NCBI GenBank assembly: GCA_017415145.1
Contig: JAFQJE010000005.1
Location: 1-60,147, forward strand
Origin: Clostridia bacterium
Lineage (GTDB): Bacteria; Bacillota; Clostridia; UBA1381; UBA9506
Length of the DNA: 60,147 nt
Direction of reading: 5' to 3'
Notes under the pieces: model-generated
Seen by the model: the letters and a program-made list of their open reading frames with translations, nothing else
What the model was told of the DNA's origin: nothing
Database searches by the model: none
Part shown: positions 25,979 to 49,477 of the stretch, piece by piece
Layout: every line of letters starts with the position of its first letter
Position numbering within the stretch: the first letter of the stretch is position 1
Program-made: the position numbers and the translations under genes

Positions 25979-28591
25979 TTGTTGTTCTACGAACGAGCAA
26001 AAGAAGATATTTTAAATCATTTTAACACAACCGAAGCAGAAGGGCTCTCCTCTGCTCAGGTAGAAGAATTACAGAAAAAATTCGGAGAAAATAAGCTGAA
26101 CGAAAAAAAGAAAAAAACTATGTTGCAGCGTTTTACAGAACAGTTCCGCGACGTTATGATTTTAATTTTAATTGCAGCAGCTGTCATTGCCTTTGTGGTT
26201 GCCTGTGTAGAGGGTGAACCCAAAGAATTCTTTGAACCTGCACTTATTCTTTTGATTGTGGTTTTGAATGCAGCAATGGGTGTAGCACAGGAAAGCAAAG
26301 CCGAAAAGGCTTTAGACGCGCTTAAAAACCTGAGCGCTCCGCACGCCCGTGTTATAAGAGACGGTGTAGAAACTGTCATTGATGCGGCAGAATTAGTTCC
26401 GGGCGATATAATCAAACTAGAAGCCGGAGACTTTGTCCCTGCTGATGCAAGACTCTTAAAAAGTGCCAGCTTAAAAAGTGAAGAATCCGCTCTCACCGGT
26501 GAATCTGTCCCTTCAGAAAAGGACGCAGATGCAGAAGTCAAAAGCGGTGCTTCCCTGGGAGACCGAGCGAATATGGTTTTCTCTGGTTGCAGCATTACCT
26601 ACGGCACTGCTACCGCTATCGTTACCGCTACAGGTATGGATACTGAAATGGGTAAAATTGCAAACCTTTTAAATGCAGAATCAGAAACCCAGACTCCCCT
26701 TCAGCAAAAACTGGCACAATTAGGTAAATACTTGGGCATCGTTGCAATCTTGGCGTGTGCTATTATATTTGTCGTCGGTATAGTAAACGGCATACCCGTT
26801 ATGGAAATATTTATGACTGCGATATCTTTAGCAGTTTCTGCAATTCCTGAAGGATTGCCCGCAATCGTTACAATTGTACTTTCTATAGGCGTACAGAGAA
26901 TGGTAAAAAGAAACGCTCTTATAAGAAGGCTTCCTGCCGTTGAAACTCTGGGTAGCGCAAGTGTAATATGCTCTGATAAAACAGGCACACTTACACAAAA
27001 CAAAATGACTTTAGTCAAGGCTTACGTTGACGGCATAGAAAACATAGAAGATGTTACCGACGATTGCACAGAACCAACACGCAATCTCTTACTTATGGGC
27101 GCTTTGTGCTGTGACGGTTCAGTAAACTTTGCCGACGGCGAAGAAAAACATATCGGCGACCCCACAGAAACTGCAATTGTTCTCGCTGCTCACAAAAATG
27201 GTATGCAAAAGGATACAATCAACGAAAAGTATCCCAGAATTGCTGAAATTCCCTTTGACTCTGACAGAAAATTAATGACAACTGTTAACGTTTTTGACGG
27301 CAAAAAAGTAGTTATCGTAAAAGGCGCTTTTGACGTGATGGCTACACGTTGTGTATCAGGCGACTTAGAAACTGCAAAAGCAATAACCGAACTTATGAGC
27401 AAGGATGCACTCCGTGTACTTGCTATCGGTTATAAAACAGTTGATGAAATATCAGAAATTCCCACTCCAGCAGAGCTTGAAACAGAACTTACATTCTTAG
27501 GACTTGTAGGTATGATAGATCCTCCGAGACCTGAAGCTAAAGAAGCTGTAAAGGTATGTAAAAAAGCAGGCATTAAGCCCGTTATGATTACAGGCGACCA
27601 CGTTGTAACAGCTTCTGCGATCGCAAAAGAGCTTGGCATATTACAAGAAGGCGACCGCGCAATTACCGGTGCCGAATTAGACGAAATGACAGATTCAGAG
27701 CTTGACAGTGTTGTTGAAAACATCTCTGTTTATGCTCGTGTTTCTCCCGAAAACAAAATAAGAATAGTAAAAGCATGGCAACGTCTCGGTCATGTTGTTG
27801 CCATGACAGGCGACGGTGTTAATGACGCTCCTGCCCTAAAGGCTGCCGACATCGGTTGTGCTATGGGTATTACAGGTACAGATGTAGCAAAAGGTGCTGC
27901 TGATATGACTCTTACAGATGACAACTTCGCCACAATTGTTGAAGCTGTTCGTGAAGGCAGAGGCATTTATGCAAACATCAAAAAGGTTGTAGGCTTCCTC
28001 TTGGGTACAAACATCGGCGAAGTAATTACAGTTTTCCTTGCTATGATTTTATGGCACAAAACACCGCTTTTATCAATGCAGCTTCTGTGGATTAACTTAG
28101 TTACCGACAGCTTACCTGCAATAGCTCTCGGTATGGAAGATGTTGAAGCAGACGTTATGGACAAAAACCCCAAACCGAAAAACGAAGGCATATTTGCAAA
28201 CGGTCTTGGAATCCGTGTTGTCCTTCAGGGCTTTATGTTTGCTATTTTAACTTTAATAGGTTTTGTACTGGGCGAAAAAGCAACAGGAACTTTAGCCGGC
28301 GGTCAGACAATGGCATTTATAGTTTTAGCACTTTCTCAAGTTGTACAAAGCTTCAATATGAGGTCAGAGCACTCACTATTTGAAACAGGCTTCTTTACCA
28401 ACAAAAAATTAAATAATGCTGCAGGAATTTCCATCCTTTTAGTATTGATTGTATTGTTTACGCCCTTGCGTATTGCATTCAGTTTAGAGCTCCTGCCCTT
28501 CCATCTCTATTTAATCGCTTTGGTATTGATTATCATTCCTACGATTGTTATGGAAGGTTCAAAGAGAATCGGATTGATTAAAAAGAAATAA
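25979..28591 (+). CDS. P2-type cation-transporting ATPase (Ca2+ or Mn2+)
   Basis: This 870-residue P-type ATPase has the SERCA/PMR1 layout: N-terminal cation ATPase domain, actuator with SALTGES, phosphorylation site CSDKTGTLT, nucleotide-binding domain, hinge TGDGVNDAPAL, and a C-terminal membrane domain. Transport-site residues of Ca2+ pumps are conserved: PEGLP in M4, NIGE in M5 and NLVTD in M6. Related bacterial pumps export Ca2+ or Mn2+. Translation appears to start at TTG 25979, 7 nt after AGGAGG; the ATG at 25972 abutting the ribosome binding site is out of frame and opens a 17-codon frame. A terminator separates it from the upstream operon and no clear promoter is visible. Confidence 0.9.
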   Translation: MLFYERAKEDILNHFNTTEAEGLSSAQVEELQKKFGENKLNEKKKKTMLQRFTEQFRDVMILILIAAAVIAFVVACVEGEPKEFFEPALILLIVVLNAAMGVAQESKAEKALDALKNLSAPHARVIRDGVETVIDAAELVPGDIIKLEAGDFVPADARLLKSASLKSEESALTGESVPSEKDADAEVKSGASLGDRANMVFSGCSITYGTATAIVTATGMDTEMGKIANLLNAESETQTPLQQKLAQLGKYLGIVAILACAIIFVVGIVNGIPVMEIFMTAISLAVSAIPEGLPAIVTIVLSIGVQRMVKRNALIRRLPAVETLGSASVICSDKTGTLTQNKMTLVKAYVDGIENIEDVTDDCTEPTRNLLLMGALCCDGSVNFADGEEKHIGDPTETAIVLAAHKNGMQKDTINEKYPRIAEIPFDSDRKLMTTVNVFDGKKVVIVKGAFDVMATRCVSGDLETAKAITELMSKDALRVLAIGYKTVDEISEIPTPAELETELTFLGLVGMIDPPRPEAKEAVKVCKKAGIKPVMITGDHVVTASAIAKELGILQEGDRAITGAELDEMTDSELDSVVENISVYARVSPENKIRIVKAWQRLGHVVAMTGDGVNDAPALKAADIGCAMGITGTDVAKGAADMTLTDDNFATIVEAVREGRGIYANIKKVVGFLLGTNIGEVITVFLAMILWHKTPLLSMQLLWINLVTDSLPAIALGMEDVEADVMDKNPKPKNEGIFANGLGIRVVLQGFMFAILTLIGFVLGEKATGTLAGGQTMAFIVLALSQVVQSFNMRSEHSLFETGFFTNKKLNNAAGISILLVLIVLFTPLRIAFSLELLPFHLYLIALVLIIIPTIVMEGSKRIGLIKKK

Positions 28592-44973: not shown

Positions 44974-46365
44974 CTACATGGGCAATACCATTGAAACAAT
45001 GGCAAAATAAATCAAAAGCGACAAAGCGTCAACTATTGTTGTAATGAATGGACTTGCCATAACGGCAGGGTCAAGCCCGATTTTTTTTGCAATCATCGGC
45101 ATCGTACAACCTACAACCTTGGCAAGAACAACCGTTGAAAATATTGCAGCACTTACAACTAACGCTACTACAATATCTATACCGTGAGTATACAAGCTGT
45201 CAATAAACATTACCTTAAAGAAACAAACCAGCGCCATTACCGCACCCGATACTGCAGCAACACGTGCTTCCTTCCATGAAATTTTCAAAATATCACGGAA
45301 TTCTATCTCATCAAGTGCAAGACTTCTGATTACAGCAACCGAGGACTGTCCTCCAGCATTACCTGCCGTGCCCATAAGCATAGGTATAAACGCAACAAGT
45401 GCAGGGTATACCGCTAAAGACGTTTCAAAGGTTGCTAAAATACCCCCTGTAAATGTGGCAGTCAGCATCAGAAGTAATAACCATATTATTCTCTTTTTAA
45501 AGGTTTCTATTACACCTTCTTCAATATATGATTTGTCAGATGGTGTCATACCTGCCATCATTTCGATATCTTCTGTAGTTTCCTGTTCAATAACGTCCAC
45601 GATATCGTCGATTGTTATAATACCTACAAGACGCTTTTCAGCATCCACTACAGGCATAGACAAAAGGTCATATTTTTTAAAATAATGAGCGCCTGTTTCC
45701 TGGTCGTCATGAGTGTATATATACATGGGTTCTTCTGTCATAATATCAGAAATAATTTCATCAGGCTGACTCAATATCAGCTTACGTATAGACACCGTAC
45801 CCTCTAGATGACGCTTTTCATCCATTACATAGCAAGTGTTAATTGTTTCTTTGTCAACTCCCGTTGCCCTGATATGTGATATAGCATCACGAACAGTCAT
45901 TTCCTTCTTCAAATCCACATACTCTGTGGTCATAATAGAGCCTGCAGAATCATCAGGATATTTTAACAACTGATTTATTATTTTTCTTGTTTCGGGGTCA
46001 GTTACCTTCAAAACCTTTTTTACAACATTTGCAGGCATTTCTTCAAGAAAGTCTACTGTATCATCCATAAACATTTCGTCCACAATGCTTACAATTTCAC
46101 GTTCTGTTATGGATTCTACAATAAACTGCTGAAGCTCCGATTTCATATAAGAAAAGCTTTCTGCCGCCAAATTTTTTGGCAACATTCTAAATACCCTGAG
46201 GATTTTTTCCTCGGGTATCTCTTCAAAAAGCAATGCAATGTCTGCTTCATTCATGGTAACTAAAATTTTGCGTGCATCAACATAATGGTCAGCACACACC
46301 AATTCTATTACATCTTCTGTCTTAAGTTCTATAATGTTTTCTGTGATGTTTTCTAAGATTTCCAT
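44974..46365 (-). CDS. mgtE: Magnesium transporter MgtE
   Basis: The 463-residue Mg2+ channel has the full MgtE layout: an N-terminal superhelical domain (about 1-135), two CBS domains (about 140-265, including GSIMTTEYVDLKKEMTVRDA and VVDAEKRLVGIITIDDIVDV), and five transmembrane helices. The pore signature MGTAGNAGGQSSVAVIR lies near residue 330. Cytoplasmic Mg2+ gates the channel through the N and CBS domains. The ribosome binding site AAGGGGGA (about 46381-46373) is 8 nt from the ATG and is sequestered in the leader described separately. It heads the mgtE-yugP-cobO run. Confidence 0.96.
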   Translation of the reverse strand: MEILENITENIIELKTEDVIELVCADHYVDARKILVTMNEADIALLFEEIPEEKILRVFRMLPKNLAAESFSYMKSELQQFIVESITEREIVSIVDEMFMDDTVDFLEEMPANVVKKVLKVTDPETRKIINQLLKYPDDSAGSIMTTEYVDLKKEMTVRDAISHIRATGVDKETINTCYVMDEKRHLEGTVSIRKLILSQPDEIISDIMTEEPMYIYTHDDQETGAHYFKKYDLLSMPVVDAEKRLVGIITIDDIVDVIEQETTEDIEMMAGMTPSDKSYIEEGVIETFKKRIIWLLLLMLTATFTGGILATFETSLAVYPALVAFIPMLMGTAGNAGGQSSVAVIRSLALDEIEFRDILKISWKEARVAAVSGAVMALVCFFKVMFIDSLYTHGIDIVVALVVSAAIFSTVVLAKVVGCTMPMIAKKIGLDPAVMASPFITTIVDALSLLIYFAIVSMVLPM

Positions 46366-46525
46366 TAAAAAATCCCCCTTTATTTAATTTTGCAACAGCA
46401 AAACAGGGGGTCTATGAGCTATAAATCAGATATGACAGATAAGCTCACAGATACCCTGCATCTTACAACTTCGAGGTTTAGGTTGACTATTATCCATAAG
46501 CTCATCTCCTTTTGAACAAAATTAC
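46366..46525 (-). promoter_or_regulatory. mgtE leader with leader peptide and competing hairpins
   Basis: Two structures exclude each other. The antiterminator-like hairpin pairs 46458-46442 with 46420-46404 over 17 positions (15 pairs and a 2x2 internal loop). The OFF hairpin pairs CCCCC (46410-46406) with GGGGG (46378-46374), which is the mgtE ribosome binding site, around an inner TTTTGC/GCAAAA stem, and is followed by ATTTTTTA. The 5' arm of the first hairpin is codons 14-19 of a leader peptide, so translation of that peptide would decide which hairpin forms. I see no M-box aptamer. Confidence 0.7.
46426..46497 (-). CDS. Putative 23-residue leader peptide upstream of mgtE
   Basis: A short frame begins at ATG 46497 with AAAAGGAG 8 nt upstream, the strongest ribosome binding site in this leader. 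It encodes Met-Asp-Asn-Ser-Gln-Pro-Lys-Pro-Arg at its start, then Cys11, Cys17 and Cys21, and ends at TGA 46426. Pro6 and Pro8 lie just before the segment that forms the 5' arm of the antiterminator-like hairpin. ATGAGCT between its ribosome binding site and start codon can also pair with AGCTCAT at 46420-46414. The likely role is cis regulation of mgtE by translation state; a stable Cys-rich peptide is the alternative. Confidence 0.6.
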   Translation of the reverse strand: MDNSQPKPRSCKMQGICELICHI

Positions 46526-46531
46526 TTTATT

Positions 46532-46560
46532 ATTATACTCCTTTTTTTCATAAAAATCAA
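46532..46560 (-). promoter_or_regulatory. mgtE promoter
   Basis: On the minus strand TTGATT (46560-46555), 17 bp, TATAAT (46537-46532), placing the start near 46525, about 160 nt before the mgtE ATG. Confidence 0.82.
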
Positions 46561-47734: not shown

Positions 47735-49171
47735 TTAAAGTTTGTCCTTTTCGTCTTTTGATTCAATACCCTTGTTCTTTGCTTCCTTTGTAACAATACC
47801 GGCTAAAGCTATAAGACCGATAACGTTGGGAAGTACCATGAACTGATTAAATGTATCCTGTGTCAACCATACAAGTTCGTTTTCCTGAACAATAGTACCA
47901 ACAAATACAAAGATAACTGAAATTATTGAGAAGAAAATCTTTGTTTTCTTACCAAATAGGTACTTGAAGTTAATTTCGCCGAACAAGTTCCAGCTGATGA
48001 TTGTTGTAAACGCAAAGAACATTAAACAAATTGCAACATATGCATTACCGATTGTAGAACCGAATACACTACCGAATGCCATCTGTGCTACATTTGTCTT
48101 ATTTATTCCTGCTGCTGCAATTAAATCAGCATAGTTCGAGCCGTTAGCAAGTGCTAAAGCACCATCGCCTGTGTATGTGCATGTGATAACAACTAAAGCT
48201 GTCATGGTTAAAACTACGAATGTATCAAGGAATACACCAATCATAGCTGCTGTACCCTGCTCATGTGCTGTCTTAACGTCTGCTAAAGCGTGAGCGTGGG
48301 GTGTAGAACCCATACCAGCCTCATTTGAGAAAAGACCACGTTTAGCACCCTGGCTGATAGCAATTTTAAGTGCTGCACCGATACCACCACCGATTAAAGC
48401 CTGGGGCTGGAATGCGAACTTAAATATTGCACCAAATGCTGCAGGAACGCTTGTAATATTTACTGCAAGAATTATCAAACTGCCTACAATGTAAAGAATT
48501 GCCATGATAGGCACAATTTTTTCTGCTGTCGCTGCAATTCTCTTCGCACCGCCGATAACGATGAATGCAACTACCAATGCAACAACTAACCCTGTAATCC
48601 ATGTAGGAATACCAAATGCTGTGTTGATTGTGGCACCGATTGAGTTTGACTGTACCATACCGCCGATAAAACCTAATGAGATAACTGTCGCAATAGCAAA
48701 GAAACCTGCTAAGAATGTACCAAACTTACCTTTAAATGCTGTTTTGATGTAGTAAATAGGACCGCCCTGAATGTTGCCGTCTTCATCTACTTTTTTTGTT
48801 TTCTGAGCTAAAACTGCTTCCGCGTAGATTGTTGACATACCTAAGAATGCAATAATCCACATCCAGAAAATAGCACCGGGACCACCTGTCAAAATCGCAC
48901 CGCTGGCACCAACGATGTTACCTGTACCAACCTGACCTGCAACTGCAGTTGCAAAAGCCTGGAAAGAACTAATTGTGTTCTTTTCGCCCTTTTTGAACAT
49001 ACCGCCAAATACGTTCTTTATACCTTCGCCAAAGCAACGTACCTGTACGAATCTTGTTTTAATTGTGAAAAATAAACCTACGAACACAAGCAATGCAATG
49101 AGAACGTAGTCTGCCATGTATGTATTGATTACATTCATGACATCAAGCAAAGTTTTTTCAATATTTGCCAT
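47735..49171 (-). CDS. Alanine/glycine:cation symporter (AlsT/AGCS family)
   Basis: The 478-residue membrane protein is an AGCS-family carrier that takes up alanine or glycine with Na+ or H+. Signatures include FATAVAGQVGTGNIVGASGAI near residue 75, GGPGAIFWMWIIAFLGM and GAKRGLFSNEAGMGSTPHAHA near 290, and there are about eleven hydrophobic segments. The start used follows AGGAGG by 9 nt; a 26-codon upstream extension is rejected. A tandem glycine riboswitch precedes it, so glycine is a likely substrate or signal. Confidence 0.92.
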   Translation of the reverse strand: MANIEKTLLDVMNVINTYMADYVLIALLVFVGLFFTIKTRFVQVRCFGEGIKNVFGGMFKKGEKNTISSFQAFATAVAGQVGTGNIVGASGAILTGGPGAIFWMWIIAFLGMSTIYAEAVLAQKTKKVDEDGNIQGGPIYYIKTAFKGKFGTFLAGFFAIATVISLGFIGGMVQSNSIGATINTAFGIPTWITGLVVALVVAFIVIGGAKRIAATAEKIVPIMAILYIVGSLIILAVNITSVPAAFGAIFKFAFQPQALIGGGIGAALKIAISQGAKRGLFSNEAGMGSTPHAHALADVKTAHEQGTAAMIGVFLDTFVVLTMTALVVITCTYTGDGALALANGSNYADLIAAAGINKTNVAQMAFGSVFGSTIGNAYVAICLMFFAFTTIISWNLFGEINFKYLFGKKTKIFFSIISVIFVFVGTIVQENELVWLTQDTFNQFMVLPNVIGLIALAGIVTKEAKNKGIESKDEKDKL

Positions 49172-49220
49172 TTTTGTTTGCCTCCTAAATTTTTGTTTGT
49201 TTAAATTTTGATTAAGCAAA

Positions 49221-49251
49221 GAAAAAAGCATTGCGTTTGTGCAATGCAAAA
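49221..49251 (-). terminator. Terminator of the glycine riboswitch expression platform
   Basis: On the minus strand GCATTGC, loop ACAAAC, GCAATGC is followed by TTTTTTCTTT, between the riboswitch and the symporter start codon. Confidence 0.85.
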
Positions 49252-49280: not shown

Positions 49281-49443
49281 TTTCTGTCCTTTTGCCTGAG
49301 AGATTAACGCACGACACACCGTGTCACGTTTTGCACCTTCGGCACCTGCACCTAAGCAGGCTTCTCCAGAATGTTATCCGTTTGCAGTCCTTTGTACCTG
49401 AGAGTGTTACTCCTTCGGGAAGACTTATGTCTTATTTCCTGCA
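49281..49443 (-). ncRNA. Tandem glycine riboswitch
   Basis: Read on the minus strand, the first aptamer (about 49443-49384) contains TCCCGAAGGAG, ACTCTCAGGTACAAAGGAC and closing GCAG/CTGC. The second (about 49371-49281) starts TTCTGGAGA, has GGTGCCGAAGGTGCAA and ends ATCTCTCAGGCAAAAGGACAGAA. These match the two glycine aptamers, including both CCGAAGG and CTCTCAGG(x)AAAGGAC motifs. A terminator follows and a consensus promoter precedes, so glycine controls readthrough into the symporter gene; the direction (on or off) is not clear by eye. Confidence 0.95.
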
Positions 49444-49477
49444 ACCTTCACTTAACTCAATATTTATTTACTTTACC

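Follow-up and report, generated by a model that had tools for sequence, protein, structure and literature searches.

The leader described here precedes mgtE, the gene for a Mg2+ transporter, in a window of 60,147 nucleotides from a Clostridia bacterium (the whole stretch of DNA that was analyzed; contig JAFQJE010000005.1 of assembly GCA_017415145.1). Gene and leader lie on the minus strand and comprise the following features:

44974..46365, minus strand: mgtE, Mg2+ transporter gene (MgtE_N, CBS and MgtE domains)
46532..46560, minus strand: sigma-70-type promoter of the mgtE transcript, TTGATT-N17-TATAAT, 10 of 12 consensus matches
46506..46510, minus strand: Shine-Dalgarno sequence AGGAG of the leader ORF
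46426..46497, minus strand: upstream ORF (uORF) of 23 codons plus TGA, MDNSQPKPRSCKMQGICELICHI (ATG at 46497, TGA at 46426)
46471..46482, minus strand: Pro6-Lys-Pro8-Arg9(CGA), the presumed pause or drop-off codons; CGA is kept in kind in relatives
46492..46506, minus strand: arm 1, ribosome binding site (RBS) and start of the uORF, GATGAGCTTATGGAT; partner 46452-46438 (helix 1:2)
46438..46458, minus strand: arm 2, codons 14-20; partner arm 1 (through 46452-46438) or arm 3 (through 46458-46442)
46404..46420, minus strand: arm 3, AGCTCATAGACCCCCTG; partner arm 2 (15 pairs) or, through CCCCC 46410-46406, arm 4
46367..46378, minus strand: arm 4, the GGGGG Shine-Dalgarno sequence of mgtE (46378-46374), then A and U6

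The first-pass annotation had placed the promoter, the uORF with its RBS, the proline codons 6 and 8 and three cysteine codons, and all of these coordinates proved right. The peptide starts with MDNSQPKPR: besides Pro6 and Pro8 it has only one acidic residue near its start (Asp2), fewer than MgtL (EPDP). The role of arm 4 in RBS sequestration and/or as an intrinsic terminator is presumed from a predicted hairpin, without expression data. Elsewhere in the window, tandem glycine riboswitch aptamers are found at 49282-49451 (minus strand), upstream of a sodium:alanine symporter gene (47738-49249, minus strand).

The arms can form three helices. Helix 1:2 pairs 46506-46492 with 46452-46438 (codons 15-20) over 15 positions, with a calculated energy of -21.0 kcal/mol (p 0.001). 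For helix 2:3, in which 46458-46442 (codons 14-19) forms 15 pairs with 46420-46404 and leaves two mismatches, the energy is -26.8 kcal/mol (p 0.0015). Helix 3:4, between CCCCC 46410-46406 and GGGGG 46378-46374, has -12.9 kcal/mol (p 0.026), and 2:3 and 3:4 are mutually exclusive. The p values refer to 2000 dinucleotide shuffles, none of which matched all three helices jointly, and the entire mgtE leader also folds better than its dinucleotide shuffles (z -2.93). The 15-pair hairpin and the competing CCCCC/GGGGG pairing, followed by A and U6, had been described beforehand and were both recovered in place; helix 1:2 had been overlooked, as had the CGA codon of Arg9. Since helix 1:2 adds to 2:3 and 3:4, the leader has a complete four-arm layout. 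The 3:4 hairpin escaped a generic terminator scanner, as its loop is longer than that program allows.

Overall, the leader has the hallmarks of the MgtL, CorL and MgtQ type: a short, RBS-preceded uORF ahead of a Mg2+ transporter gene, acidic and/or proline residues at the start of the peptide, and mutually exclusive structures that overlap the uORF and include a stem masking the uORF RBS (the latter by sequence prediction, not by probing).

The uORF is widespread. An RBS-preceded frame with Asp at codon 2 occurs in 52 of 114 mgtE upstream regions sampled from Clostridia, against 1.2 (s.d. 1.1) in shuffles, and Glu at this codon is weakly raised (8 against 1.8). When an early Pro is required together with an acidic residue, 42 of the 114 leaders still qualify, compared to 2.1 in shuffles. 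About half of the sampled mgtE genes are without the uORF. A scan of genome contigs for MgtE yielded only six loci. Besides MDNSQPKPR of the window, the uORFs fall into the types MDxxPGR, MDxGSSxxxxPDGR, MDxxPLP and MDSSPVRKR, and they have in common an early Asp and an early Pro, to which most add a single Arg spelled CGA. Of the peptide features singled out earlier, the early proline is conserved; a second proline is not required, as many relatives have one, and the three cysteine codons are not conserved. In their C-terminal half the peptides differ freely from one another, in length as well as in sequence, and in one relative (L012) the frame ends after 13 codons. Between close uORF pairs, 27 of the 37 changes in codons 2-12 fall on third positions and 21 of the 37 are synonymous, where 8.4 would be expected (p 8e-6). 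As far as sequence comparison can tell, the uORF is retained as a coding sequence, in kind, in many families of Clostridia, which was the first of the checks proposed in the first-pass annotation. The contig that carries the closest mgtE (G002) stops within the gene; a search for the absent 5' end found only a 21-nt match elsewhere, which is due to chance. In a sister family (L024, L030, L031 and L038), the gene preceding mgtE terminates, near the mgtE start or near its uORF, with codons for a comparable acidic tail (D-x-VI-x-x-D).

The second proposed check, covariation, was run on 52 non-redundant leaders, in which the partner was dinucleotide-shuffled and reversed sequences served as control. 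For pairing between the uORF RBS and the region downstream of it in the same leader, the mean z is -1.87 (p 7e-9; reversed control -0.10); for pairing between that downstream region and the mgtE RBS, z is -1.42 (p 7e-8; reversed control -0.31). A control with swapped partners agrees with these results. In L004, a leader from the same genus (MgtE identity 62%), the arm sequences have diverged while all three helices, and with them the hairpin logic, are kept. In the g4 group, two pairs of the terminal hairpin are altered on both sides, and sliding the partners cuts the pairing from 93% to 28-43%; the formal covariation counts are modest. The RNA arms can thus be said to co-vary in a statistical sense, in that the predicted pairing is much stronger with an arm's own partner than with a shuffled or reversed one. 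Moreover, a U-run lies between the Shine-Dalgarno sequence and the start of mgtE in 13 of 52 uORF-bearing leaders but in none of 49 uORF-less leaders (p 1e-4), as expected of a hairpin that serves as RBS mask and terminator at once.

The progress of a ribosome along the uORF was simulated with its leading edge assumed to lie 16 nt past the start of the P-site codon. In the window leader, 2:3 lasts to P-site codon 9 and 3:4 takes over from codon 10, and in L004 the fold changes between codons 5 and 7. Pro-Arg(CGA) is found at codons 8-9 and 7-8, respectively; the conserved codons are thus placed at the point at which a pause or drop-off would decide the fold. In simple equilibrium folding, an early ribosome brought no general gain in mgtE RBS accessibility across the uORF-bearing leaders (0.30 vs 0.26); only some of them, the window leader included, gained. 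Either kinetics matter or many leaders differ in their details.

From these elements, the following mechanism can be proposed. The ribosome that begins the uORF would open helix 1:2. Pausing or drop-off of this ribosome at the early Asp, Pro and CGA codons would keep arm 2 free, 2:3 would form and mgtE would be transcribed and translated. A ribosome that reaches the stop codon would instead cover arm 2, upon which 3:4 would form, the mgtE RBS would be hidden and transcription would probably be terminated. In analogy with MgtL, a low cytosolic Mg2+ level would make ribosomes fail on the acidic, proline-containing peptide start. That a translated leader peptide controls mgtE through alternative helices is very likely in our view. 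The whole statement, namely an attenuator that monitors translation in the manner of MgtL, CorL and MgtQ, with Mg2+ as its signal, is considered probable. To date, no leader comes with expression, ribosome-profiling or Mg2+ data; translation, switching and drop-off are inferences, and so are the response of uORF translation to Mg2+ and its control of the transporter. It is by analogy only that Mg2+ is taken as the cause of ribosome failure, and drop-off, rather than a stall, as its form.

The CGA codon deserves separate attention. It is the first Arg codon in 34 of 40 non-redundant uORFs, compared to 6 of the 119 Arg codons counted in the initial parts of mgtE genes (p 2e-22), and it forms the exception to the third-position freedom of the uORF. 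The uORFs had been chosen with a preference for P, GR/GS or SS in the peptide; how Arg is spelled played no part in the choice. Codons 2-11 pair only weakly with the downstream arms (mean z -0.37); therefore, the conservation of CGA is not obviously explained by RNA pairing. In mgtL from E. coli (L127), CCT-CGA is likewise found at Pro9-Arg10, and CGA recurs in most Clostridia mgtE uORFs (L002, L004, L011, L043 and others).

A motif that is conserved as peptide while its codons, CGA apart, are free to change synonymously could also belong to an arrest peptide. In this case, the conserved (P)GR, PDGR or PLP chain would stall the ribosome on another condition, such as EF-P or ABC-F activity or a tunnel ligand, and not through Mg2+-dependent drop-off. 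Proline-rich stretches are known substrates of EF-P. The action of EttA on MgtL points in the same direction (PMC11282234). The motifs are clade-specific, however (PKPR, PGR, PDGR, PLP and GSSxG), unlike a single arrest motif, and the acidic start that they share fits the known Mg2+ drop-off peptides. Such an arrest peptide is considered unlikely, though not negligible.

The attenuator with Mg2+ as its signal draws further support from the genes before which these uORFs occur. In 291 Clostridia genomes, the pattern MDxxPGR(CGA) was matched nine times, seven of them directly upstream of mgtE; the other two matches were inspected and set aside as chance. Acidic uORFs with an early Pro also precede corA, which belongs to a Mg2+ transporter family unrelated to mgtE, in 13 of 67 Clostridia leaders, against 1.2 in shuffles. 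Their peptides include MDSDPGGSR, MDADPGEKR, VGTDPYH, VDADPR (with CCT CGA) and MSADPYPN, among others, and the corA upstream regions in question (L188, L192, L197-L200, L206-L208 and L212) have the frame preceded by an RBS and an acidic residue and Pro near its start. At two near-identical loci (L137/L138), the leader of an mgtA-type P-ATPase contains an M-box followed by the EPDG uORF MSDESSSGMEPDG (MSDESSSGMEPDGLSSG). Acidic uORFs with an early Pro were found before none of 22 control P-type ATPases, and within the window mgtE alone among 53 genes has one, none being found before the other 52. The uORFs of corA and mgtA strengthen the comparison with mgtL. Together with the coding conservation and the arm pairing, they lend support, in computable checks and without expression data, to the mgtL-like leader peptide that was first suggested for this locus. 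Of the refuting conditions named beforehand, those open to computation, a frame not kept as coding and pairing without covariation, were not fulfilled.

This association with Mg2+ transporters also bears on amino-acid attenuation, in which the uORF would sense charged tRNA-Pro or the CGA-decoding tRNA-Arg and mgtE would answer to the supply of proline or arginine. The Pro and CGA Arg codons coincide with the very point at which the structure switches, and the preference for CGA is strong. MgtP is known to sense proline in Salmonella. Yet there are only one or two Pro codons and usually one conserved Arg codon, without runs: the amino-acid codon run of a classical attenuator is missing, as the window peptide has two separated Pro codons and relatives often have one. 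Furthermore, Asp2 is more constant than the number of Pro residues, and within the sample such uORFs mark Mg2+ transporters, not control genes. Attenuation by amino-acid supply is therefore given little credence, and proline starvation is a weaker candidate for the signal than Mg2+.

The M-box, a direct Mg2+-binding aptamer (RF00380) that controls mgtE in Bacillota, was said to be absent here, and indeed no match exists in the window; neither was one found in its 85%-complete genome. An Rfam search of the window leader returned no T-box, no RF00380 and no other leader match, which also rules out the leader as an M-box, an idea raised by a vague AGGTGA...TATGGAY resemblance. Rfam likewise gave no riboswitch match in the upstream regions of 20 mgtE genes, most of which lack a clear uORF. 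In five of the sampled mgtE leaders (L020, L025, L039, L046 and L050, of the MDxxPLP type), an M-box lies directly upstream of the uORF. No CorA was found in the genome of the window, in which even the best hit of the Mg2+ ATPase model stays under the cut-off. Because M-box, CorA and a Mg2+ ATPase match above the cut-off are all lacking, MgtE may be the main Mg2+ importer of this genome, of which only 85% is at hand. A P-type cation ATPase, under the cut-off of the Mg2+-ATPase model, is encoded at 25994-28570 (plus strand) of the window and likely handles another cation (e.g. Ca2+).

Stable alternative structures could in principle also mean that the RNA itself is a riboswitch, for Mg2+ or another ligand, with an incidental frame. 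This is very improbable, given the lack of an Rfam match, the strong third-position bias and the fact that the frame start is conserved between clades whose structures differ in sequence and shape. Hardly any room is left for a functional small protein acting on MgtE or elsewhere: its N-terminal part is under coding selection, but the C-terminal half varies in length and sequence, is cut down in the 13-codon frame of L012 and shares its nucleotides with the RNA arms.

A few leaders of Pseudomonadota are known to sense Mg2+ through faltering translation. If the Mg2+ attenuator proposed here is true, this principle would extend to mgtE, corA and mgtA in Clostridia and would be a general strategy, also in bacteria without a detected M-box; it would then account for the way in which many Clostridia may control a main Mg2+ importer. 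It would further provide dozens of natural variants for dissecting the nascent-chain and codon features behind Mg2+-sensitive ribosomes. The tandem leaders with M-box and uORF raise the question of why two presumed Mg2+ sensors are placed in series. A wider generalization can be entertained only tentatively: that there is a class-wide, translation-based sensor of intracellular Mg2+ in Clostridia, independent of or far older than the enterobacterial MgtL, placed before the unrelated mgtE, corA and mgtA and in some cases combined in tandem with an M-box. The Mg2+-sensitive step of this sensor would be set by the slow decoding of a single conserved CGA codon that follows an acidic, proline-containing start.

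In the full-text literature, no such leaders in Clostridia and no MgtL-type attenuator for mgtE were found, nor were descriptions of MgtL-type leaders outside Pseudomonadota; subscription titles remain largely uncovered. The earlier statement that no described leader peptide was known for the MgtE family needs qualification, as a ribosome-protected uORF with an M-box precedes mgtE in M. abscessus (PMC4974804). These mycobacterial M-box uORFs (vcgB-like, Rv1805A; PMC4974804, PMC12810186) are similarly conserved, contain a nearly invariant Pro7 (PMC12810186) and lie near Mg2+ genes. However, they are reported to be mycobacterium-specific and M-box-controlled, and no attenuator of the present layout has been described for them. 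The mgtE motif of Thioalkalivibrio (PMC11109978) is also a structured element before mgtE; it differs as a riboswitch candidate from one genus only, without a described uORF.

Closer parallels are offered by the enterobacterial leaders. In CorL (corA of E. coli and Salmonella; PMC11552253), efficient uORF translation represses a Mg2+ transporter, and the uORF RBS is masked by a stem (stem A), as reported for both mgtA and corA from E. coli. Its output is Rho-dependent, however, and the peptide has few Pro or acidic residues. MgtL (mgtA of E. coli and Salmonella), on which ribosomes drop off at the EPDP motif in low Mg2+ (PMC11282234), resembles the mgtE leader in its short uORF with an acidic, proline-containing start before a Mg2+ importer, in the stem masking the uORF RBS and in the mutually exclusive structures; in E. 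coli it also has Pro-Arg(CGA), as CCT CGA. On the other hand, mgtA encodes a P-type ATPase in another phylum, the output of MgtL is Rho-dependent termination and the mgtE RBS is predicted to be masked by a hairpin with a U-run (U6), and the likeness of the peptides is limited to the acidic start and PxPR, without demonstrable homology. The leader would work like MgtL and MgtQ, with the probability granted above to the Mg2+ reading as a whole; common descent with them is not shown. The closest structural parallel is MgtQ (mgtCBRU of Salmonella), which controls mgtB via stem-loops 1:2, 2:3 and 3:4, the last of which masks the mgtB RBS (PMC8092293). In contrast to the mgtE leader, MgtQ is an 8-codon intergenic ORF before mgtB with a purely translational output, and it depends on Asp2 and Glu5 rather than on Pro (PMC8092293). 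The strong RBS of the uORF, the Asp at codon 2 and the three alternative helices, with 3:4 masking the RBS of the transporter gene, are common to both.
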